Shown one piece after another: positions 835 through 11,266 of a stretch of DNA of 11,266 nt (the first letter of the stretch is position 1; every line of letters begins with the position of its first letter). The stretch covers positions 1 through 11,266 of the forward strand of contig NJEK01000059.1 in NCBI GenBank assembly GCA_002255105.1. The letters are read 5' to 3'. The notes beneath the pieces are model-generated. The model saw only the letters and a list, made by a program, of their open reading frames with translations. It made no database searches and had not been told where the DNA came from. A program made the position numbers and the translations under genes. The DNA comes from Candidatus Wolframiiraptor sp. EX4484-121 (lineage in GTDB: Archaea; Thermoproteota; Nitrososphaeria_A; Caldarchaeales; Wolframiiraptoraceae).

Positions 835-1866
835 TTAGCCGGGCATGGGCTTCCCCTCGATGAAACTCCCCCTAATCGGTATCCTCTGGCCGCATCTCGG
901 ACACCTGTCGCCGTCAAGCCGATAGTAGGTTACCCGATAATGGTGGCGCGCTATGAGAACTTTCCCACATCCCGGGCACCTCGTCTCCTCAAGCTCTGGG
1001 ATACCGACGTTACCAACGTAAACGTAATTTATCCCGATGCTTTGAGCCCTCTCCTTTATCCTGAGAAGCTTCGGGAGAGAGGTAGGGGGCTCCTTCCAAG
1101 CATGCGCGGGATAATATCTATTTATGTGGAGGGGGATGTCTGGGCCAAGCAGGTCGACATGTTTTCCTAGAATCCACTCAACGCATTCTTCATCGTCGTT
1201 GAACCCGGTTACAACCAAGTAAACCATCTCGACGTGCCCGCCCAAGTCTATCAGCCTTCTGGCATTCCTGAAGATCTTCAAATGGTCTATCGTTGCGAGC
1301 GCCCCACGCGCCTTCGGACACCCCTTAATATCCACGCTATATCCATCCGCCCCAGCCTCCATCAAATTCTCTAGGGCCTTCTCAGTGAAGTATCCGTTCG
1401 TGACCAACACTCCGTATAGGTTGTTTCGCTTACCGAGCTCGAATAGATCCAGCAGATAGTCGTATAGGGTTGCGGGCTCATTAAAGCTCGCGCACAATCC
1501 CTCATCACCTACCTTAAGCGCGTATTCGACGAGCCTCTCCGGCGGAATCCTCCTCGGATCTCTTGGGAGATTTGAGAAGCTCAGGTGATTGTTTTGACAC
1601 CATGGGCAGTAGAAGTTGCATCCATAGCCTGAGAAGGTTAGGGCTGTGCTGTTCGGCCAATAATGGAATAATGGTTTGATCTCTATCGGCCTGCTCTCAA
1701 CAGCGCTCAAGACGCCGTATCCTACATGGATGAGCTTCCCAGACAGATTCCGGTAATTCTTGCAGACGCCGGTCTGACCTGGCTTGAGGATGCATCTTCT
1801 CTCACAGACTAGACATCTTATGACATTATCCTCAACCCTCTCATAAAGCCGCGCCTGAAACTCCAC
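835..1866 (-). CDS. amrS: AmmeMemoRadiSam system radical SAM enzyme (AmrS-like)
   Basis: A 343-residue iron-sulfur protein of the AmrS family, related to pyruvate formate-lyase activating enzymes. The radical SAM cluster motif is C83-NFY-C87-PW-C90 within GYGCNFYCPWCQNN. Upstream is a cysteine-rich N-terminus (C18, C21, C25, C35) typical of AmrS. After the barrel, which includes the ASFNEPA, VTNGY and SVDIKG strands, comes a C-terminal CxxC/CxxC zinc-ribbon-like tail (C297/C300 and C322/C325). The family often occurs with Memo and AMMECR1 proteins, and its reaction is not settled; neither partner is visible here. Translation starts at a GTG at 1866, supported by a TTTTATTT box 25 nt upstream. 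It reads toward the pilin genes. A functional tie to pili is not supported by anything beyond proximity. The family call is firm. Confidence 0.88.
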   Translation of the reverse strand: MEFQARLYERVEDNVIRCLVCERRCILKPGQTGVCKNYRNLSGKLIHVGYGVLSAVESRPIEIKPLFHYWPNSTALTFSGYGCNFYCPWCQNNHLSFSNLPRDPRRIPPERLVEYALKVGDEGLCASFNEPATLYDYLLDLFELGKRNNLYGVLVTNGYFTEKALENLMEAGADGYSVDIKGCPKARGALATIDHLKIFRNARRLIDLGGHVEMVYLVVTGFNDDEECVEWILGKHVDLLGPDIPLHINRYYPAHAWKEPPTSLPKLLRIKERAQSIGINYVYVGNVGIPELEETRCPGCGKVLIARHHYRVTYYRLDGDRCPRCGQRIPIRGSFIEGKPMPG

Positions 1867-1887
1867 AAAACGACTTACGTAATCCGG

Positions 1888-1895
1888 AAATAAAA
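1888..1895 (-). promoter_or_regulatory. TATA-like box for the AmrS-like gene
   Basis: TTTTATTT on the minus strand, centred 25 nt upstream of the GTG at 1866. It is flanked by a perfect palindrome, TAAAACGTTTTA at 1891-1902, that overlaps the box and could be either chance or an operator. Confidence 0.45.
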
Positions 1896-2002
1896 CGTTT
1901 TAACGGCAGATCGCTCTAAGCGCTGAATCTCATCCTCAAGGGGTTCTTAGAATATTGATTGCATCGAATCCTTCTTTTGCTGAGTATGTTTTGTGTAAAA
2001 AG

Positions 2003-2010
2003 ATTTATAC
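2003..2010 (+). promoter_or_regulatory. TATA-like box for the SPASM radical SAM gene
   Basis: ATTTATAC preceded by an A-rich stretch (AAAAAG). Transcription would begin near 2030-2034, just ahead of or within the sequence GGGAGGAT at 2032-2039, which resembles a Shine-Dalgarno site. The rest of the 1867-2039 divergent spacer shows nothing else recognisable. Confidence 0.45.
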
Positions 2011-2039
2011 GGATCTGATCGGTCAAATAGCGGGAGGAT

Positions 2040-3158
2040 ATTCCTCAGAAACTCTGCGCGCCATTCGTCATAGTCTGGAATTTCACGAATGCATGCAACC
2101 TGAGATGTAAGCACTGTTATCAAAACGCCGGGCCTAAGCCTCTCCCAAACGAGCTTACATTCGAGGAGAAGTTGAATGTCTTGAATCAGCTCGATGAGAT
2201 GGAGATACCTCTGATAGCGTTCAGCGGCGGCGAGCCTACGATCCACCCAGACTTCATACCGATGGTGAAGGAAGCGACGAGGAGGGGGATCTATGTAGCC
2301 GTCGCGACTAATGGGCTGGCCTTCGCGAGCGAATCCTTCACGGATAAGGCGTTGAAGGCGGGGTTGAAGTATGTTGAGGTGAGCTTGGACTCCACGGATC
2401 CAAAGGTTCACGACGAGTTTAGGGGGGTTAAGGGGGCTTGGGAGCTCGCGGTCAAGGGGATTAGAAATGTGGTGAAGCATGGGGGCGCGTCAACGGGGAT
2501 AGCCATGACCCTGACAAAGCTCAATAAGGATCAGATAGGCGACATGGTTAGGCTCGGAGAGGAGCTTGGAGTGACTAGGGTGATCTTCTTCAACTTCATA
2601 CCGACCGGAAGGGGGAAGGAGAATGTTAGTCTCGACCTAACGCCGGAGGAGAGGGAGGAGGCTCTAAGATGGATTTATCGAGAATCCCGTAGATCGAGCG
2701 TCCAAGTCGTCTCAACAGCTCCCCAGCTCGCAAGAGTTTCATGGCAGATGAGCCGGGGAGAGGATGTTCTACCAACCCACTTCACCGTTCCGAAAAGCCA
2801 AACCCTCAGAGGCCTGGCGGAGTTCATCGGCGGATGCGGAGCTGGAAGGATCTACGCAGCGATCCAGCCAGATGGAAAGGTAACTCCATGCGTCTTCATG
2901 CCGATAGTGGTTGGCGACCTGAGGAAGCAGACGTTTAAGGAGATTTGGGAGAATAGCGAGGTCATGCTCAAACTCAGAAACAAGGATCTGATCAAACCCC
3001 CATGCGGGGAATGCCCTTATCGATATGTCTGTGGAGGATGTAGGGCCAGAGCCTACTCGTATTACGGGGACTATCTCGCCCCAGATCCAGGATGCCTCAG
3101 GGGATTGATGGTCAGCCGGGGGATGAGGGAGGAAGTCCTGGCCACCGTGGAGAGATAA
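2040..3158 (+). CDS. SPASM-domain radical SAM protein (AhbD/NirJ/Cmo-like)
   Basis: About 372 residues if read from the ATT at 2040. The cluster motif C19-NLR-C23-KH-C26 lies in NACNLRCKHCYQNAG, followed by the SAM-binding SGGEP motif at residues 62-66. The C-terminal SPASM region has seven cysteines (266, 284, 322, 325, 331, 334, 352), including GKVTPC, CGECPYRYVCGGC and PDPGC, expected to bind extra 4Fe-4S clusters. This combination resembles heme biosynthesis enzymes AhbD/NirJ and the tungsten-oxidoreductase cofactor-modifying proteins; the substrate cannot be decided. The frame is open only from 2031 (TAG at 2028-2030) and contains no ATG, GTG or TTG before 2172. Starting at the TTG at 2172 would delete the cluster cysteines, so it is not credible. 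Either a rare ATT start is used after GGGAGGAT or a sequence error hides the start. Its promoter is separate from that of the divergent AmrS-like gene. Confidence 0.8.
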   Translation: MPQKLCAPFVIVWNFTNACNLRCKHCYQNAGPKPLPNELTFEEKLNVLNQLDEMEIPLIAFSGGEPTIHPDFIPMVKEATRRGIYVAVATNGLAFASESFTDKALKAGLKYVEVSLDSTDPKVHDEFRGVKGAWELAVKGIRNVVKHGGASTGIAMTLTKLNKDQIGDMVRLGEELGVTRVIFFNFIPTGRGKENVSLDLTPEEREEALRWIYRESRRSSVQVVSTAPQLARVSWQMSRGEDVLPTHFTVPKSQTLRGLAEFIGGCGAGRIYAAIQPDGKVTPCVFMPIVVGDLRKQTFKEIWENSEVMLKLRNKDLIKPPCGECPYRYVCGGCRARAYSYYGDYLAPDPGCLRGLMVSRGMREEVLATVER

Positions 3159-3804: not shown

Positions 3805-4185
3805 TTATCCCAAAACGTCCTTAATGTCCCTCACAATGTTCGTCGCATCTATCAGTATTAGCCCGAGATTCGCGTTGGGCTTCATCAATATCACCAAGGA
3901 TGATTTCCTACCAGAGCACACTAATGCTCCACCGTTTTCAGAAAGTATTATCAGCTGAGCCACGTTTCCGAACCCCACCTGCTGAGATGCTCTCTCAGCA
4001 ATACTCATAAGTGCTGCGAAGGCCGCTGAGACTAAATCTTCATCCATATTTTTCGGGATCTCCCCCGCTAACATGAGTCCCTCGTTGCTCACTACCGCCG
4101 CTCCCAAGATATCTTGGTTCGCCTCCGGAAGCCTCCTTAAAATCTCATTGACCTTACTCATCTCGATCGGCGGCAACTCCCTCAT
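3805..4185 (-). CDS. Roadblock/LC7 domain protein (orphan copy)
   Basis: A 126-residue protein covering one Roadblock/LC7 domain. It has a first helix (SKVNEILRRLPEAN), strands ILGAAVVSNEGLMLAGEIP, a long second helix (DEDLVSAAFAALMSIAERAS), strands LIILSENGGALVCSG and SLVILMKPNANLGLILI, and a last helix (ATNIVRDIKDVLG). The KPNANLGLI segment closely matches KPNPNLGFI in the Roadblock protein encoded at 9581-9943. Such proteins dimerise and act on small Ras-like GTPases as partners or activators, as MglB does. The ATG at 4185 is chosen because CATATATG sits 24 nt upstream. The frame extends to an ATG at 4236, and an ATG at 4161 is also possible. It lies 69 nt after the unknown gene at 4255-4878 and may be co-transcribed with it. 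Its partner GTPase is probably the one encoded at 9940-10485. Confidence 0.8.
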   Translation of the reverse strand: MRELPPIEMSKVNEILRRLPEANQDILGAAVVSNEGLMLAGEIPKNMDEDLVSAAFAALMSIAERASQQVGFGNVAQLIILSENGGALVCSGRKSSLVILMKPNANLGLILIDATNIVRDIKDVLG

Positions 4186-4205
4186 CTTATAAGTCAATCG
4201 AGCCT

Positions 4206-4213
4206 CATATATG
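4206..4213 (-). promoter_or_regulatory. TATA-like box for the orphan Roadblock gene
   Basis: CATATATG, centred about 24 nt upstream of the ATG at 4185, consistent with a leaderless transcript. It overlaps the longer open frame that begins at 4236. Confidence 0.33.
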
Positions 4214-4254
4214 CGTTTCCAAACCAACAACCTCATGAGGCATATTATTGAGCC

Positions 4255-4878
4255 TCAGCCGACGTCTAGGAGCCTGATCCCTAAAAGCTTGACATAGATT
4301 CCCCTGAGCTTCTCATATTTCACATCATCTATTTTCTTCTCGAGCTTGAGCTTATCCAGCTTTCTCATCAACTCCTCAAACACGTGCTTGCAGAGGCCGG
4401 CGACCGCCGGGCTCCCCCCATATACTTTAGATTCCTCAGAGCGCTTGGCCTCAACCCCATTAAAGCTCCCCATCTTGCGGGCGCGACGTAGCAGACGATC
4501 AACTACTTGCTCGGAGTTTAAGCGGCCTCTGCTGCTTATTAGCATGGAGTACAGTTCTGATGCCATGTCCACAGCCTCCTCGCCAAAGTAGTCGCATCCC
4601 CCTAAGCTGACGGCTGGAAAGAGGGGTATATTGAATACCGGTTTATACCTCTCCTTATATAATTCCGATATCGAGTACACTATCACCTTCAAGGTGTCAC
4701 ATCTCCTCGCAGAGTTTGGCCTCAACGCTATCTTAAGCTCGGTGAGTATGGCTCCGAGATATCTTTGGGAGCTGAGCTTCACCCCGCCGTCCAATTCCCC
4801 GATCAATTCATCGAGAATCGCCGCTATACTATAGGACAAGTCGTCTTCCGCTAGGAAGAATATTATGTGCTTTTCCAT
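4255..4878 (-). CDS. Hypothetical protein, 207 residues
   Basis: I do not recognise this family. It starts with MEKHIIFFLAEDDLSYSIAA, has no signal peptide or convincing membrane helix, and looks mostly helical. Residues about 1-85 could form a mixed alpha/beta domain (IIFFLAED and TLKVIVYSI as strands). Residues 95-140 are helical (GEEAVDMASELYSMLISS, then VVDRLLRRARKMG). The tail at 160-200 is a charged amphipathic helix rich in Lys/Glu (MRKLDKLKLEKKIDDVKYEK) that may be coiled-coil. The ATG at 4878 is about 30 nt from a weak CCTTAAAC element (around 4905-4912); GCTTATAT further up (about 4938-4945) is another candidate. It lies between the pilus ATPase gene and a Roadblock gene on the same strand, so a role with the Roadblock/GTPase switch is possible but unproven. 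Confidence 0.6.
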   Translation of the reverse strand: MEKHIIFFLAEDDLSYSIAAILDELIGELDGGVKLSSQRYLGAILTELKIALRPNSARRCDTLKVIVYSISELYKERYKPVFNIPLFPAVSLGGCDYFGEEAVDMASELYSMLISSRGRLNSEQVVDRLLRRARKMGSFNGVEAKRSEESKVYGGSPAVAGLCKHVFEELMRKLDKLKLEKKIDDVKYEKLRGIYVKLLGIRLLDVG

Positions 4879-4977: not shown

Positions 4978-6900
4978 CTAAACCTTCTTAAGCTTTATGA
5001 GACCCTCCGACACCTCTATCTTACCTTCACTCCTTAACCTCAATAAGGCCTTCACGACGAGATCCTTGGGAATGGAGGCCTTAGCGAATATCTGCCAATA
5101 TGGGATCGAGCCGTTACTCATTGACAGAAGCTCTATCACATGGTTTACAGCGTCCTCCACTCCCTTGGCCTCGGTTTCCTCGATGGGCTTCCTGACGGGG
5201 ATTGAGGGAGTCTTCGGAGTTGGGGACCAAGATGCCAGAACCTCTCCCTTAAATCCGACGGATGGAGCTGCGGCAACCACCTCTATCCCATGATCCTTAA
5301 GGAACTTCTCCGGATTCGTGTAGTATGAGTAGACCACGTTTGCGACGTCCTTCAATTCAACCACATTATTTCTGATCATCCACTCCAATACCGCCTTCCT
5401 CCTCCAAAGCTCTTCTAGGACGTCCTCCTTAGACTTCCCCATCCTCAACGCTATTCTATCGAGTATTATGCTCGCCGGGAAGTCTGTTCTGAACGTGTCG
5501 CTTAGAGGATCCCATTCGGCTATCGTGATATATCTACCATAATCCGCAACCTCCCAGACGGATCGAACCCTCCTGCCGAACGCCCTGCCCTTAAACGGCT
5601 TCGGGAGATAAACCCTCTCAATCAATATGAAGGCGTCGAGGAGGGAGATGTGGCTCGGTGGGATGTTCATCGGAGGGCTGACAAGCCTCTTGATAGCAGA
5701 CTCAACGCTCTCTGCGTGGATGGTCGACATACCCCCATGGCCAGTCGCGATCGACTGGAATAAGACGAAGGCCTCCTCTCCCCTCACCTCGCCAACTATT
5801 AGATAGTCTGGCCTATATCTGAGACTCGTCCTCACCAGGTCGAATAGAGTTATCTGTCCGGTCTTCGTGGTTCCAAGCCCATAGCTCTCACGGGTTACGA
5901 ACTTCACCCAGTTCTCGGTTGGGAGGTTGAGTTCGGCGGTCTCCTCGCATGTAACTATCTTCATCCTAGGCTTGATGAAGCAGGCTAAGGCGTTTAGAAG
6001 GGTTGTCTTGCCGCTTCCGGTGGCTCCGGCTATCATTATGTTCGCCTTATGCTCTAAGAGTATCCAGAAGTATGCAGCCATCTCGGGGCTCATTAAGTTG
6101 CTCTCAAGGAGCTCAATTATGCTGAACGGCTTCTCCCTAAACTTCCTTATTGTGAACGTGCTCCCCCTCGGCGACACCTCCTCCCTGAAGGTCGCGGCGA
6201 GCCTATGTTTTCCATAGATCATCGCGTCGAGGATTGGGAACGCCGATGAGATATGTTTACCGGATTTGTGGGCCAGCTGTATTATGAAATCGTCCAAGAC
6301 ATCCCTGTCCGTGAACATTATGTTCGTTGGCATGCTCTCATAATCCCTATGCCAAACATAGACGGGGACGTTTACACCATCGCAGGATATGTCCTCAATC
6401 CTATAATCCTCCATTATGACGTTGAGAGGGCCGAATCCCATCATATCCCTCTCAAGATAGTAGATGAGCTTATCCCTCGATTCCTCGGAGACCCCGCCGA
6501 AAGCCCTCCTATACTTTTTCAGCAGTTTATCCGCCGTCTCGATCAATAGCTTTTTCACGTCCTCTTCTTCCCCGGGCTTCGGAGGCTCAAGTTCCTTTGA
6601 GAGCATGCCCTTCAACAATTCGAGGGCTTTTATCTCATGGGGTTCAAGCTGAACCTCTTTGACGAAATATGTTGGCTCAGGGGTTGGGCCTGGAGGGGTT
6701 GCGATCACGACTTCAGCATATCCTTCCCGTATAGGATAGCCGTCTATAACCTTGTAGTCTTTCGGAACGGGCTTGACCTCTATCCCCTTCCAGAAGAGCT
6801 CGTATTCCTCTTCTCCCTTGGACTTCTTTTTCTTACCCAAGCTCCTCCTACCCAACAATTTACTATCTTTAAGGGAGTAATATATCCTTCCCCGGAGCAT
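4978..6900 (-). CDS. Type II/IV secretion system (pilus) ATPase, TadA/FlaI-like
   Basis: A 640-residue hexameric motor of the PilT/VirB11/TadA/FlaI superfamily, expected to act at the inner face of the membrane and power filament assembly. Visible motifs are Walker A GATGSGKTT (292-300), an acidic box CEETAEL (318-324), Walker B YLIVGEVRGEE (366-376) and a His box TGHGGMSTIHAES (386-398). The N-terminal half (120-260) is the usual domain, containing MGFGPLNVIMEDYRIEDI. After the catalytic core there is a Pro-rich linker (559-572) and a small helical domain at 580-640 that looks like a winged helix (IFAKASIPKDLVVKALLRLR). This makes it longer than archaellum FlaI at roughly 500 residues. The ATG at 6900 directly follows the TAA of the permease gene, so translation is probably coupled. 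Its platform partner is likely the TadC-like protein encoded at 10485 onward. Confidence 0.9.
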   Translation of the reverse strand: MLRGRIYYSLKDSKLLGRRSLGKKKKSKGEEEYELFWKGIEVKPVPKDYKVIDGYPIREGYAEVVIATPPGPTPEPTYFVKEVQLEPHEIKALELLKGMLSKELEPPKPGEEEDVKKLLIETADKLLKKYRRAFGGVSEESRDKLIYYLERDMMGFGPLNVIMEDYRIEDISCDGVNVPVYVWHRDYESMPTNIMFTDRDVLDDFIIQLAHKSGKHISSAFPILDAMIYGKHRLAATFREEVSPRGSTFTIRKFREKPFSIIELLESNLMSPEMAAYFWILLEHKANIMIAGATGSGKTTLLNALACFIKPRMKIVTCEETAELNLPTENWVKFVTRESYGLGTTKTGQITLFDLVRTSLRYRPDYLIVGEVRGEEAFVLFQSIATGHGGMSTIHAESVESAIKRLVSPPMNIPPSHISLLDAFILIERVYLPKPFKGRAFGRRVRSVWEVADYGRYITIAEWDPLSDTFRTDFPASIILDRIALRMGKSKEDVLEELWRRKAVLEWMIRNNVVELKDVANVVYSYYTNPEKFLKDHGIEVVAAAPSVGFKGEVLASWSPTPKTPSIPVRKPIEETEAKGVEDAVNHVIELLSMSNGSIPYWQIFAKASIPKDLVVKALLRLRSEGKIEVSEGLIKLKKV

Positions 6901-7761
6901 TTAGATGGAGTTACCGAGGGCATATGCGAAGTTTTCCGAGGCTGAGAGGATCCTTCGTCTAAGGATTAGGAGGAGTGAGAGCGGGTAGGCCGCTAAAGGT
7001 GCTAGGAGCCATAGGGGAGGAGCCGCCGCCAAGGTCCCCAAGCTCCTTATGATGAGGATCGGGAGATCTAAGATTATCGACCCGGCCATGGGGATAACGG
7101 TGTATAGGAGAGCGAGGTGGGAGAGGGCGGCCGCCGGCTTCCCAGATCTCAAGGCCATGAGCATGGAGATCGTCGAGGACGTTATCGAGGTTGTTAGGGC
7201 GAGGAAGAGATCTAAGATCATAAATGGGTTCTCACCGATCATCACATTCATCAAGCCATAGAATGCCATCGCAAACAACGTCGAGACGATTATATATGAT
7301 AGGAGCATTCCATCGAGATAATTTCTCAATCCATTTGAGGATGAGGCCGGGGACCAGAGATTCATCCTCTCCGCAACACTCCAGTTTATGGTTAAGAGGG
7401 CTGGAATTAATGGTATGTAGAGGACTGTGAGGATTGTCGACGCCAGCTCGGGTCTTAACGAGCTCCAGGCAATCCTAGATAGGCTCATGTTCGCCGCGAC
7501 GAAAACGGCTAGGAAGAGCATCGAGGCGCCGAGGCTTCCATCCCTACAGATCCTCATCAGATGGAACTTGATGAGGTAGAGGCGGAGGGAACCCTTAGTG
7601 AAATCTAGCTCTAGGTGCGGGAAACTCGTCCGACGCGAACTCGGCTCCATGAAACCCTTAGTTAGAAAGGGATTCACGTTTGAGAAGACCTTAACTCTTA
7701 GTGCTTGAAGATATGATCCCAAGATCGCCGCGAGATATGCCGCAATGTTATCAAGGTCCAT
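6901..7761 (-). CDS. ABC-2-type exporter permease, C-terminal part
   Basis: A 286-residue, strongly hydrophobic product with about seven predicted membrane helices, among them GASMLFLAVFVAANMSL, STILTVLYIPLIPALLTI, LLSYIIVSTLFAMAFYGL and PLWLLAPLAAYPLSLLLIL. The first 64 bases overlap the upstream permease frame. Read across the two frames, TLITL from the upstream frame continues into AAYLAAILGSYLQAL here, giving one unbroken membrane helix. This suggests a single permease of about 460 residues interrupted by a one-base shift near 7743. The alternative is two coupled subunits, with this one starting at the ATG at 7761, which lacks a clear ribosome site. Its stop codon abuts the start of the pilus ATPase gene. 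The ATPase encoded at 8304-9029 is the obvious energy partner. The substrate is unknown. Confidence 0.65.
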   Translation of the reverse strand: MDLDNIAAYLAAILGSYLQALRVKVFSNVNPFLTKGFMEPSSRRTSFPHLELDFTKGSLRLYLIKFHLMRICRDGSLGASMLFLAVFVAANMSLSRIAWSSLRPELASTILTVLYIPLIPALLTINWSVAERMNLWSPASSSNGLRNYLDGMLLSYIIVSTLFAMAFYGLMNVMIGENPFMILDLFLALTTSITSSTISMLMALRSGKPAAALSHLALLYTVIPMAGSIILDLPILIIRSLGTLAAAPPLWLLAPLAAYPLSLLLILRRRILSASENFAYALGNSI

Positions 7762-8288
7762 CCTAGAGCCCTCGCAGACCTTCCATACCCCCTCACACCC
7801 AATACTCCGAGACCATGGGCCATAATCACCGCCATTAAGATCGAGACCTGGTAAACCATGAGGAATCTCAAGAGATATTGCTCCTCCGGATATAGTAATG
7901 TCGCGATAAATGTTGAGACTGCCGGCGTCAGAATCACGTTGAGGAATATCAGCTGGAAGATCAAATCCGCGATGAGATACGTTGATGGCTTAACAGGAGA
8001 TGGGAGGATGAAGTCCACCTCTGATCTCAGCGCCGTGATGCCCCCCTTCATCCCGAGATAGATCTCGAATATGAAGAGCGCCGAGAACGTGGATGCGATG
8101 GCCGTGATTATTTTGGGAAGATCCTCGACCCCCGCGATCCCGTATAGACCTCTCATTAGGGCCGCGGCCCCGGCGGCCGAGAACGTTATCAGCAGGTAGG
8201 TTATGATCGTCGAGATCCTTGCCGTGGATGAGATTCGTAGATTACCATAATATTGTTTGAGCTTGAAACCGAGGATCGGTTTTATCAT
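7698..8288 (-). CDS. ABC-2-type exporter permease, N-terminal part
   Basis: About 196 residues from an ATG at 8288, which is preceded by GGAGAT with suitable spacing. The GTG at 8297 is too close to that site. It contains about four membrane helices (STIITYLLITFSAAGAAAL, ITAIASTFSALFIFEIYL, DLIFQLIFLNVILTPAVSTF, YQVSILMAVIMAHGLGVLGV). The last roughly 15 residues (LRHISRRSWDHIFKH) are basic and look unlike a natural permease end, consistent with reading out of frame after about 7743. The gene follows the ABC ATPase gene by 15 nt and should form the membrane channel with the downstream permease fragment. The family call rests on topology and the ATPase neighbour rather than a conserved motif. 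Confidence 0.62.
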   Translation of the reverse strand: MIKPILGFKLKQYYGNLRISSTARISTIITYLLITFSAAGAAALMRGLYGIAGVEDLPKIITAIASTFSALFIFEIYLGMKGGITALRSEVDFILPSPVKPSTYLIADLIFQLIFLNVILTPAVSTFIATLLYPEEQYLLRFLMVYQVSILMAVIMAHGLGVLGVRGYGRSARALGWTLITLRHISRRSWDHIFKH

Positions 8289-8303
8289 ATAGCCCACATC
8301 TCC

Positions 8304-9029
8304 TCATCTCCCATTGACGAGCTTGATGAATGCCTCCTCCAAACTATTCGCGTTAACCATCTGTTTTATGGAGCTCACGTCGCCGCTCACGACCTCCCTC
8401 CCCCTATACATTATCGTCACGGTATCGCAGAATCTCTCAGCCATGTCAAGCATGTGGGTGCTGATGAGGGCAGCTCCCCCATCCCCGACGACCTCCTTGA
8501 CCATGAGCTTAACCTTTAGCTGGCCCTCCGGATCCAAACCCAGAAACGGTTCGTCGAGGATCAAGATCTTGGGCTTATGGATGAAGGCCGAGGCCACGGC
8601 CACCCTCTGCCTCAACCCCCTAGATAATGAGCCTATGAATTCGCGCCTAAGCTTCGTGAGGTTGAAGATCTCCATCAGCTCGCCGATCCTAGACTTAGCC
8701 TCCTGCGGTTTAACGGATCGAAGCCTCGCCAAGTATCCGAGGAACTCCTCAACGGTTAGATATTCCGGGAGAGCGGGATCTTCGGGCAGGTAGCCTATCA
8801 GGGACTTATAGCTTTCGGAGGACGTTATCTCCACGCCGTTCACCAAGACCTCGCCTTCATCCGGCCTCAGAAGCCCAACTATACACTTGACGACTGTAGT
8901 CTTTCCCGCGCCGTTCGGCCCCAGCAACCCATGGACCTCCCCAGCCTTTATTGAGAGGCTTAGGTCTGCTACGGCCAAGGTCTCTCCATAGCTCTTCCAA
9001 AGCCCCTTGACCCTCAGCAAGTCCTCCAC
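8304..9029 (-). CDS. ABC transporter ATP-binding protein (ABC-2 exporter type)
   Basis: A 241-residue nucleotide-binding subunit with Walker A GLLGPNGAGKTT (about residues 34-45), a Q-loop region replaced by the E-containing GYLPEDPALPEYLTV typical of the DrrA/CcmA-like exporter group, signature LSRGLRQRVAVA, Walker B ILILDEPFLGLD, and H-loop LISTHML. The C-terminus ends SLEEAFIKLVNGR, a common ending in ABC-2 ATPases. The GTG at 9029 is taken as the start, since the N-terminus MEDLLRVKGLWKSYG fits the family. It is the first gene of the leftward operon that continues into the permease parts and the pilus ATPase. A clear TATA element upstream is not seen. The divergent operon starts 87 bases away. 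Export of a drug, lipid or other substrate is possible and cannot be decided. Confidence 0.9.
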   Translation of the reverse strand: MEDLLRVKGLWKSYGETLAVADLSLSIKAGEVHGLLGPNGAGKTTVVKCIVGLLRPDEGEVLVNGVEITSSESYKSLIGYLPEDPALPEYLTVEEFLGYLARLRSVKPQEAKSRIGELMEIFNLTKLRREFIGSLSRGLRQRVAVASAFIHKPKILILDEPFLGLDPEGQLKVKLMVKEVVGDGGAALISTHMLDMAERFCDTVTIMYRGREVVSGDVSSIKQMVNANSLEEAFIKLVNGR

Positions 9030-9086
9030 GAGATATTCCCCAGCTATCTAAGATGAAAGTCTACCGTTTAGACCTAATTAGAAAGA

Positions 9087-9094
9087 GATATAAA
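9087..9094 (+). promoter_or_regulatory. TATA-like box of the Roadblock-GTPase-TadC operon
   Basis: GATATAAA, centred 26 nt upstream of the GTG at 9117, so the operon transcript is probably leaderless. It lies in the 87-bp spacer between two divergent pilus-related operons, a good place for shared control. Confidence 0.5.
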
Positions 9095-9116
9095 CCGCGC
9101 GGAGAAACTCTTTTAT

Positions 9117-9581
9117 GTGAATGGCTTAACCCCCGATCTATTCGCGATAGTTACGAATCCGCTGGTCACCTTCCTCATCCTAGTGGTAGTCTTAATAATC
9201 TCGATCACAGCCCTGATAACCTCACTCCTCACGGTTAAGAGGTTTTCCGAGCTCGTCTCACGGGAGGTTAAGGCCGCTGAGGGAGCTCCGGAGGGAAGGA
9301 TTGAGGAAGCCGCCAAGCAAGGTGGGGAGGCTGTGGAGGTCGAGTCTAAGAAGGCTCCGGAGGAGGCCGAGGTGATCAAGATCTCAGGCGGATTCGAGTC
9401 CCTGGGAGATCTGGCCACCCTAACCGGGATGGACTCCATCTTCCTCTTCAACCTCTCCGGGCTGCCGGTGGACTCGTATAACATGAAGGAGGGGGAGCGG
9501 GTCGCGGCATCTCTCGCGGACTTCATCCTAACCTTGAGGAGGCTCGGATTCCCGGCGGACACTAGGGGGAGGGAGGAGTGA
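9117..9581 (+). CDS. Membrane-anchored protein with partial Roadblock-like domain
   Basis: A 154-residue protein. Residues 12-40 form one strong membrane helix (VTFLILVVVLIISITALITS), followed by a short basic stretch (VKRF). Then comes a charged Glu/Ala/Lys linker (about 45-90), likely flexible. The C-terminal 60 residues resemble the first half of a Roadblock fold: helix ESLGDLATLTG, strand DSIFLFNLSG, strand LPVDSYN and a long helix GERVAASLADFILTLRRLG. The second half (remaining strands and last helix) is absent; the chain ends in a polar tail. It probably tethers the switch to the membrane. It starts at a leaderless-type GTG, and its TGA overlaps the ATG of the next Roadblock gene (TGATG), indicating translational coupling. 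The Roadblock assignment is by pattern only and is moderate. Confidence 0.62.
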   Translation: MNGLTPDLFAIVTNPLVTFLILVVVLIISITALITSLLTVKRFSELVSREVKAAEGAPEGRIEEAAKQGGEAVEVESKKAPEEAEVIKISGGFESLGDLATLTGMDSIFLFNLSGLPVDSYNMKEGERVAASLADFILTLRRLGFPADTRGREE

Positions 9582-9943
9582 TGTCGGCCACCTACGAGAC
9601 CTTCAACATGCTCATAGAGAATATAATGGTCAGCTGTAGGGGATGGCTCGACGCCATAGCGGTGGTCTCGGAGGATGGAACCCCGATAGCATATAGTGCA
9701 AACATAGACTTCAAGCCCGAGTTCATTGCCGCCGCCACCGCGGCGATAGGTGGAGCTGTTTCAGCCGTCATCGATCTATTGAACGCGAAGTCCTATGAGA
9801 AGGTGGATGTCCAGCTTCAGGATAAGAGGTATTTACTGATACGGAGCTATAAGTCGCACTACGTGGTTGGGTTGACGAAACCCAACCCCAATCTCGGGTT
9901 CATAAACCTGATTCTAGAGGCATATCTCTCAGGGAGATCATGA
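9581..9943 (+). CDS. Roadblock/LC7 domain protein (MglB-like)
   Basis: A 120-residue single-domain protein. It has an N-terminal helix (YETFNMLIENIMVSCRG), strands DAIAVVSEDGTPIAYS, a long Ala-rich helix (EFIAAATAAIGGAVSAVIDL), strands KVDVQLQDKRYLLIRSY and YVVGLTKPNPNLGFI, and a last helix (LILEAYLSG). This is the Roadblock/LC7 order, and the KPNPNLGF motif matches the orphan copy encoded at 3805-4185. The ATG at 9581 is preferred over the GTG at 9578 because GGAGGAG lies just upstream and the ATG overlaps the previous stop codon. Its own TGA overlaps the next ATG (ATGA). Roadblock proteins beside a small GTPase usually act as its partner or GTPase activator, as MglB does for MglA. Confidence 0.83.
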   Translation: MSATYETFNMLIENIMVSCRGWLDAIAVVSEDGTPIAYSANIDFKPEFIAAATAAIGGAVSAVIDLLNAKSYEKVDVQLQDKRYLLIRSYKSHYVVGLTKPNPNLGFINLILEAYLSGRS

Positions 9944-10485
9944 AGTCGTATAAGATCCTCGTGACCGGCCCGTTCAACGCGGGAAAGACCACCTTCGTGA
10001 GAACTCTATGCAAGGAGTATCTCGACACGGAGAAGAGATTATTTCGAAGAGCGGTGAAATCCGTGACCACGGTGGCCCTAGACTTCGGGGTAGTAAAAGT
10101 TGGCAAGAATAGATGTGTGAAGTTGTTCGGAACTCCTGGCCAGGAGAGGTTCTCATTTCTGTGGAGACCCCTCTCGATAGGGATGGATGGATATATCTTG
10201 ATGATAGATTCCGGAGACCTCGAGAGCGTCGAGAAAGCCGAGAAGATCTACAGATTCTTTAGGAAACTGGCTCCGAGAACCCCGCACGTCATCGCCGTCA
10301 ATAAGTACGATAAACCCGGATTCAAGATGAGCTGTGAGGATGTTAGGGGACTGCTGGAGGTCCCTCCAACCATCCCGGTGAAGGCGACGATAGCAACCGA
10401 TTATAATAGCGCGCTGAGCCTGGTCAACATGTTGTTAAAGCTTATTGATAGGGAAGGCTTGGTAACACTGAGGGAGGAGGTCTAA
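9940..10485 (+). CDS. Small Ras/MglA-like GTPase
   Basis: A 181-residue small GTPase. The P-loop is GPFNAGKTT (10-18), switch I is near TTVALDFG (43-50), switch II is LFGTPGQERFSFLW (62-75), the G4 motif is NKYD (121-124), and the G5-like segment is KATIATD (148-154). Gly replaces the usual Asp at the start of DxxG (GTPGQ), a variant known in the COG2229 family of prokaryotic GTPases related to MglA and SRP receptor beta. No lipid-attachment motif is seen. It is encoded between a Roadblock gene (4-base overlap) and the TadC-like gene (stop and start overlap as TAATG), so all four genes are probably made together. A switch controlling pilus location or activity is the natural reading, but this is inference. 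Confidence 0.88.
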   Translation: MKSYKILVTGPFNAGKTTFVRTLCKEYLDTEKRLFRRAVKSVTTVALDFGVVKVGKNRCVKLFGTPGQERFSFLWRPLSIGMDGYILMIDSGDLESVEKAEKIYRFFRKLAPRTPHVIAVNKYDKPGFKMSCEDVRGLLEVPPTIPVKATIATDYNSALSLVNMLLKLIDREGLVTLREEV

Positions 10486-11266
10486 TGGGGATAGTTGACA
10501 GCTTAGCCGGGTTCTCATACTCGAATTTCAGGGGACTTGGATCGCTAATTTTAAGGGTGTTTCCGCAGATCTCGGCGAAGCTTGAGAGCGCTGGAATAAG
10601 GATTCACCCCGAAGCATATGCGTCCGTCGTCGCCGCGACCACATTGATAAGCGCCATAGCCTGCATTCCGTCGGCGGTCATCATATACCTCTTGACCCAG
10701 AGCATAATCTACCCGATAATCGTGGGCATAATCCCGCTATTCATCCTATTGATGGGCGTGGCCTATCCATATGGGGAGGCGGCCTCGAAGGCCTCGGTTC
10801 TGGAGAGCGAGGTCCCCTATGCCGCAACCTATCTCGCCGTCATGGCGACCGGCGGGATACCCCCCTACACCAGCTTGAGGAGAATCGCGAGAAGTGAGCT
10901 TATGCCCAATCTGGCTAGGGCTGCTAGGATGGCCGAGATACAGGTCTCCGCGACCGGATTGGATCCCGTCACGGCTATGGAGAATATGGCCAAGGGGATT
11001 CCGTCGAAGGAGTATAGAGACCTGTTGATGGGCTATGCCTCAACCCTTAGAAGCGGTGGAGATGTTGTCCACTTCCTCATCAGGAAGACCGAGACGATCT
11101 TCGAGGCTAGGACGAATAAGATGAGGATCGTCGGGGAGAGGATGGGGATGCTGATGGAGGCTTATGCCGCGACCGTGATGATGCTCTCCCTAGTAGTCTA
11201 CATAATATACATAGTGTCTAGGGCGATGCCAACCCAATACATGATCCTCCCACCAGGCCAATTCGT
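10485..11266 (+). CDS. TadC/FlaJ-like type II secretion system F protein, partial
   Basis: An open frame from the ATG at 10485 that leaves the window after about 260 residues. Near the N-terminus (residues 20-42) is a helix with FPQISAKLESAGIRIHPEAY, typical just before the first membrane segment. Two membrane helices follow at about 45-69 and 74-94. A cytoplasmic T2SF-like helical domain covers 108-215 (EVPYAATYLAVMATGGIPPY, then YRDLLMGYASTLRSGGDVV). Another membrane helix lies at about 224-246. This is the TadC/PilC/FlaJ platform protein that works with the TadA/FlaI-type ATPase to assemble pilins. The ATG overlaps the GTPase gene's TAA, so the two are coupled. The C-terminal part is outside the window; many archaeal versions carry two T2SF repeats. 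Confidence 0.85.
   Translation, partial: MGIVDSLAGFSYSNFRGLGSLILRVFPQISAKLESAGIRIHPEAYASVVAATTLISAIACIPSAVIIYLLTQSIIYPIIVGIIPLFILLMGVAYPYGEAASKASVLESEVPYAATYLAVMATGGIPPYTSLRRIARSELMPNLARAARMAEIQVSATGLDPVTAMENMAKGIPSKEYRDLLMGYASTLRSGGDVVHFLIRKTETIFEARTNKMRIVGERMGMLMEAYAATVMMLSLVVYIIYIVSRAMPTQYMILPPGQF

Follow-up and report, generated by a model that had tools for sequence, protein, structure and literature searches.

A small GTPase and Roadblock proteins encoded at an archaeal type IV pilus locus

In some bacteria, cell polarity and the activity of pili are set by small GTPases that work with Roadblock proteins, and relatives of both govern membrane traffic and signalling in eukaryotes. An archaeal locus in which genes of both kinds adjoin a pilus gene raises the question of whether such a switch has also been recruited to a surface machine in archaea. 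The locus lies on contig NJEK01000059.1 of Candidatus Wolframiiraptor sp. EX4484-121, and the whole stretch of 11,266 nucleotides analysed is referred to here as the window. Its forward strand encodes, in this order, the membrane-anchored Roadblock protein Rob1 (9117–9581), the soluble, MglB-like Roadblock/LC7 protein Rob2 (9578–9943, 121 residues), a small GTPase (9940–10485, 181 residues) and a TadC/FlaJ-like pilus platform protein (10485–11266), the last of which is cut by the window end and spans about 590–600 residues in relatives. The four open reading frames (ORFs) overlap by 4, 4 and 1 bases, in agreement with the 1–4 bases given in a preliminary description of this DNA. Both the order and the overlaps recur in L001 (Thaumarchaeota archaeon isolate AUK008), and the order is shared by L039; these two are the closest relatives of the window. 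Our analysis describes an MglA/MglB-type module of a known kind, new in its membrane-anchored Roadblock and in its siting in an archaeal pilus locus.

The GTPase, its Roadblock neighbours and the pilus machine

The GTPase scores above the cut-off of the NCBIfam small_GTP model and of several Pfam GTPase families. It features a GPFNAGKT P-loop, TTV in switch I, FGTPGQ in the G3 motif and NKYD. All 27 aligned members of the family keep the P-loop, the switch I TTV and G[T/S]PGQ, with NKxD retained in 26; the G3 motif reads GTPGQ in 22 members and GSPGQ in five. T43 and T44 are invariant in all 27, threonine replacing the arginine of MglA group 1. In the MglA classification (PMC4316618), group 1, which includes the motility MglA, is characterised by TVPGQ in G3 and an intrinsic arginine finger in G2; groups 2–5 have GTPGQ in common, and a threonine takes the position of that arginine. 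By motif, the window GTPase is of the group 2–5 type. Assignment to group 1 was rejected, as the protein has GTPGQ and the threonine pair in place of TVPGQ and the arginine. When the family profile was compared with the PDB, MglA (3t12) was the second match listed (4.4e-16). In bacteria, MglA is described as acting on type IV pili.

Rob2 of the window scores under the Pfam Robl_LC7 gathering threshold; across its family, 32 of the 36 members match this model at E values up to 0.1 (best 4.8e-14). Matches are found for 12 of the 34 Rob1 family members at E values up to 1 (best 3.9e-5). In its AlphaFold model, the L001 Rob1 is composed of a long helix (residues 21–60), membrane-spanning by inspection, followed by a Roadblock fold in the order helix-strand-strand-helix-strand-strand-strand-helix. 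The best PDB match of this model is an Asgard Roadblock protein (7f8m), followed by chains of Rag/GATOR complexes and the Myxococcus MglB (6hjm, E 5.3e-5). Two features expected of an MglB/Roadblock partner, the Roadblock/LC7 fold and a gene beside that of the GTPase, are thus found, with the fold of Rob1 taken from the full-length L001 relative of the truncated window protein.

This truncation stems from one of four deletions. Alignment with L001 reveals losses of about 330, 111, 127 and 153 bp from the window, near positions 2041, 3183, 7740 and 9563, respectively. The window Rob1 has 154 residues and its full-length relative P0131 has 205; the two are 98.6% identical over the first 146 residues and end alike in an RGREE tail, the 51 residues between being absent from the window. 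At the junction of the deletion of about 153 bp (9562–9567), Rob1 has lost the C-terminal half of its Roadblock domain. The "membrane-anchored half-Roadblock" of the preliminary description is accordingly right in that Rob1 is short in the window, and the "half" is a product of this deletion. A radical-SAM-like gene and a helix-turn-helix (HTH)-like gene (named by inspection) have lost their starts to the deletions near 2041 and 3183, and the deletion near 7740 splits an ABC permease. The genes damaged by the four deletions are all intact in L001 and L039. Because four clean losses fall within 11 kb, we suspect a faulty contig; a damaged strain could instead account for them.

The TadC-like protein matches Pfam T2SSF over the cut-off (3.6e-11), and the ArlJ, BasF and UpsF models score below theirs. 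On the reverse strand, a FlaI/TadA/GspE-type pilus secretion ATPase of 640 residues is encoded at 4978–6900 (T2SSE 3.9e-34), with PDB matches to 2oap (5.7e-96) and FlaI (4ii7, 4.4e-68). The same strand encodes a pilin-like protein (283–828) whose N-terminus is type III-like by inspection and whose relatives are found in the pilus loci L041, L044, L048 and L050, and a second pilin-like protein cut by the window end (1–247). The ATPase, the platform protein and the pilins, the latter recognised by inspection and by profile, are the components of a type IV pilus machine. This strand further encodes g207 (4255–4878), a protein not assigned to a family whose N-terminal domain may be thioredoxin/KaiB-like, and Rob3 (3805–4236), a third Roadblock/LC7 protein that matches Robl_LC7 over the cut-off (2.9e-10). 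An archaellum was considered and rejected: ArlI reached 355 bits against a cut-off of 550 and ArlJ 66 against 550, the latter on the protein cut by the window end. In three related loci (L042:1242-4499, L047:2129-5416, L049:4086-7364), the pilus ATPase ORF spans about 1,090 residues and contains a long, intein-like in-frame insert in the ATPase domain.

Conservation and phylogeny of the GTPase cassette

We followed the cassette through the 44 genomes of the class to which the L001 genome belongs. The GTPase is present in 26 of them, and in 24 of these 26 Rob1 and Rob2 lie directly upstream on the same strand. The exceptions are G012, which has no Roadblock gene beside the GTPase, and G002, where a short GTPase is separated from the Rob pair by the ATPase. 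Of the 26 GTPase-bearing genomes, 14 (G001, G002, G025, G026, G027, G029, G030, G031 and G038–G043) have the GTPase in a pilus locus, where it adopts several arrangements. It is placed between Rob2 and TadC (e.g., L041, L042, L044, L048), in a cassette past the ATPase while another Rob1-Rob2 pair adjoins TadC (L047, L049, L050), or in a cassette beside g207, Rob3 and pilins (L045). If the cassette were placed at random, the probability of its lying within about 25 kb of a pilus locus in 14 or more of the 26 genomes would be about 3e-18, uncorrected for kinship. The association of GTPase, Roadblock and pilus genes proposed in the preliminary description is borne out by this siting, by its several gene orders and by the MglA-family motifs. 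The adjacency suggested as a check is not unique to this genome, and no pilus gene was found near the GTPase in the other 12 of the 26.

With an E value of at most 1e-80 as the cut-off, TadC orthologues were identified in 34 of the 44 genomes. They are found in 24 of the 26 genomes with the GTPase, as compared with 10 of the 18 without it (Fisher p 0.008, uncorrected for kinship). On a tree built from 69 GTPases, the label for pilus linkage requires 5 changes, as compared with 17.5 when labels are shuffled, and pilus linkage is therefore clustered by descent, although several long branches make parts of the tree unsure.

The Roadblock proteins are sorted by their neighbours as well. A maximum-likelihood tree was built from 48 Roadblock proteins of the class. 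One branch (support 99/98) sets apart the 25 that precede a GTPase, and a second (100/99) sets apart the 11 g207-linked proteins along with three ungrouped rows. Rob3 groups with the other g207-linked Roadblocks. The nine followed by TadC fall between, a single clade of these not being supported. In the window's clade, the GTPase-paired form of Rob2 takes the position beside TadC. That neighbouring gene and Roadblock sequence go together is as expected if the GTPase-paired and TadC-paired forms have different partners, and the tree predicts different binding partners for the two. In one locus (L049:11764-12609), a g207-type domain and a Roadblock domain are fused in a single ORF, with overlapping ORFs in L050. 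The fusion ties g207 to the same protein group as the Roadblocks; the fold of g207 is uncertain.

Beyond the class, the GTPase profile matched 71 of 398 genomes sampled from the phylum, and 40 of the 50 places outside the class were examined. One locus (L079, genome G383) encodes on one strand TadC, five ORFs, some with pilin-like N-termini by inspection, and then Rob1, Rob2 and the GTPase. In two others (L113:10173-11084 and L114:5046-6018, genomes G280 and G219), a different Ras-like GTPase with a normal DxxG motif (WDLGGEER) adjoins Roadblock, TadC and pilus ATPase genes; a GTPase of the window's family, with GAPGQ in G3, is also encoded nearby with Roadblock genes. Among all the loci examined, three ORFs (L036:9329-10886, L037:8931-10488, L118:7311-8907) correspond to a KaiC-like ATPase domain fused to an MglA-type GTPase domain, where the KaiC-like domain was recognised by inspection of L036 and the other two ORFs are alike in length; a Roadblock gene overlaps the end of each. 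In L088:67-2693, three consecutive Roadblock genes are followed by an MglA-type GTPase and then by a membrane Roadblock resembling Rob1; the stretch fetched there gave no match to TadC or the ATPase.

A proposed switch module and its alternatives

Starting from the genes and their families, from motifs of the MglA type and from a conserved cassette that is repeatedly found at the pilus locus, we lean on balance towards an MglA/MglB-type switch module that is tethered to the membrane by a Roadblock protein and has been recruited to an archaeal type IV pilus machine. The products of the cassette, Rob1, Rob2 and the GTPase, would form one such module, in which Rob1 would hold its Roadblock domain at the membrane through the N-terminal transmembrane helix and a flexible linker. 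Rob1 and Rob2 would assemble into a Roadblock dimer or a higher-order complex. This would bind the GTP-loaded GTPase and control its nucleotide cycle, by GAP or exchange activity. In this lineage the module would have been recruited to the type IV pilus-like machine, and the GTP-bound GTPase, positioned beside TadC and the ATPase, may license or block pilus assembly or decide where the machine is placed. Contact with TadC or the ATPase is part of this proposal, and the GTPase may in this sense be "wired directly to a pilus motor", as the preliminary description put it, a statement that, like polarity, goes beyond what the genes show. Spatial polarity would be one possible output only and has no support of its own here. 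If the proposal is true, archaea have a GTPase-controlled surface machine with the control located at the machine itself, and the locus offers a simple system for asking how Roadblock-GTPase pairs operated before eukaryotes.

Ragulator (LAMTOR) is a membrane-tethered Roadblock dimer that serves small GTPases. It provides a scaffold for the Rag GTPases, and Rag-Ragulator chains are among the structure matches of the Rob1 model; in the archaeal locus, by contrast, one Roadblock bears its own transmembrane helix and the GTPase is without a Roadblock tail. The MglA/MglB polarity module of Myxococcus and Thermus likewise combines a small GTPase with a changed G3 motif and a Roadblock partner. It differs from the module described here in that the latter has GTPGQ in G3, a threonine for the group 1 arginine finger, an added membrane-anchored Roadblock and genes inside a pilus locus. 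Members of MglA groups 2–5, including CvnD of the actinobacterial conservon, are described as sharing GTPGQ, the G2 threonine and a GTPase gene beside a Roadblock gene, whereas the neighbour in the present locus is a pilus machine. No histidine kinase (CvnA) or CvnC-like match, as would mark a conservon next to CvnB and CvnD, was identified among the ten window proteins scanned, which included Rob1, Rob2, the GTPase and TadC. For MglA group 4, which is mostly archaeal and made up mainly of methanogen sequences, the classification reports no conserved neighbours (PMC4316618).

Roadblock proteins of arCOG02603 are known from various archaeal type IV pilus (T4P) loci (Makarova et al. 2016, PMC4858521). 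The same survey mentions KaiC-like ATPases as possible T4P regulators, and the sole GTPase named in its main text is FtsZ-like, with no mention of a small Ras-like GTPase such as that of the window (PMC4858521). In the Asgard archaeon MK-D1, small GTPase genes are reported generally not to be in operons with Roadblock genes (PMC10933270). Caldarchaeales genomes are reported to encode pilins, in a paper in which the word "GTPase" does not occur (PMC10547907). Among the papers listed by a literature search of titles and the starts of abstracts, with supplements and most subscription papers outside it, none concerned a small GTPase encoded at a pilus locus of archaea.

Several observations weigh against a recruited switch module. 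Rob1 of the window is itself truncated, orthologous TadC is still found in 10 of the 18 genomes of the class that lack the GTPase, and in G002 the only Rob pair is at TadC with the GTPase apart. Four genomes (G034, G035, G037, G044) carry consecutive genes for the ATPase, Rob1, Rob2 and TadC with no GTPase found, where the contigs of two of the four end inside TadC and the completeness of the metagenome-assembled genomes is not given. Four others (G038, G039, G040, G043) have two Rob pairs, the one on the TadC side being without a GTPase. The latter two sets of genomes would fit a Roadblock pair that is itself a pilus component, an anchored dimer acting by itself as a scaffold or regulator of TadC or the ATPase, with the GTPase optional and travelling with its own Rob pair. 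Consistent with this, the TadC-followed Rob2 is distinct from the GTPase-followed Rob2 in the tree, Rob3 stands beside the ATPase without a GTPase of its own, and Roadblock proteins are described in varied archaeal T4P loci in a passage that leaves small GTPases unmentioned (PMC4858521). We nevertheless regard this explanation as rather doubtful, as the window's clade has the GTPase-type pair at TadC with the GTPase between Rob2 and TadC, and a second kind of GTPase is encoded in the pilus locus of G280 and G219. A related idea, which we put forward only tentatively, is that Rob1, anchored by its transmembrane helix, and Rob2 represent a self-contained archaeal docking platform for GTPases, a minimal two-Roadblock analogue of Ragulator. 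This platform would have been plugged into the pilus machine more than once and with at least two kinds of GTPase, the MglA-type (the window's class, G383) and the Ras-like type with WDLGGEER (G280, G219).

The siting of the cassette elsewhere also counts against recruitment to the pilus. In 12 of the 26 GTPase-bearing genomes (G011 to G022), the 3–10 kb fetched on each side of the GTPase gave no match to TadC, the ATPase, g207 or the pilins, in a search that could miss more divergent pilins. Among the five such cassettes inspected closely, the neighbours of four (L032, L046, L052, L055) resemble DUF47 and tRNA-endonuclease proteins by inspection; L033 has neither kind of neighbour by the same inspection. 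Outside the class, a Roadblock match lies within the fetched stretch in 31 of the 40 GTPase loci, and TadC in only three (L079, L113, L114). In a control of 60 further TadC loci outside the class, of which 40 reach at least 3 kb on both sides of TadC, none contained a small Ras-like GTPase when all profile and P-loop matches were inspected; two (L124, L170) gave a Roadblock match. The GTPase-pilus link is thus real but lineage-restricted, and it seems to have arisen more than once. The cassettes away from the pilus and the scarcity of TadC outside the class would suit a general membrane signalling module, conservon-like and with several outputs, whose pilus siting reflects co-regulation of surface functions with no motor contact. 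We consider this unlikely, since 14 of the 26 genomes have the same pilus machine next to the cassette despite rearrangements and the link is seen in three lineages. A membrane-remodelling GTPase that drives vesicle formation, like the haloarchaeal ArvA/OapA, has a precedent in that a small archaeal GTPase with a vesicle role is known (PMC10927574). The words "Roadblock" and "pili" are absent from the main text of that paper and the neighbours in the window are pilus genes, which makes this explanation highly improbable.

Flanking genes in the divergent row

The forward row is separated from a divergent row by an intergenic region (9030–9116) that is conserved in L001 and L039, the two relatives with which the window was aligned. 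A TATA-like TATAAA is located at 9089–9094, about 25 bp ahead of the GTG start of Rob1, and may direct a leaderless transcript. A search of the region for sigma-70 promoters and terminators gave no match.

On the other side of this region, the reverse strand encodes an ABC-transporter ATP-binding protein (8304–9029, ABC_tran 1.4e-33) and the ABC permease (6901–8297), which is split into ORFs at 7698–8297 and 6901–7761 and corresponds to a single gene of 526 residues in L001. The preliminary description had placed a TadA/FlaI-like ATPase 87 bp away in a divergent operon; the divergent row is present, and the gene at 87 bp encodes the ABC-transporter ATPase instead. The pilus ATPase starts 2.1 kb past the start of that gene, with g207, Rob3 and then the pilin-like genes farther on. 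The pilus ATPase is the third gene of the divergent row in L039, and in L040, L041, L042 and L044 the divergent neighbour is the pilus ATPase itself. An ABC exporter permease recurs upstream of the pilus ATPase in L051, L075, L076 and the window (6901–9029), accompanied by its ATPase in L075, L076 and the window. Two radical-SAM-like genes also recur beside the pilus locus, at 835–3158 in the window and in L001, L002, L049 and L050, and might modify the pilus or a surface protein.

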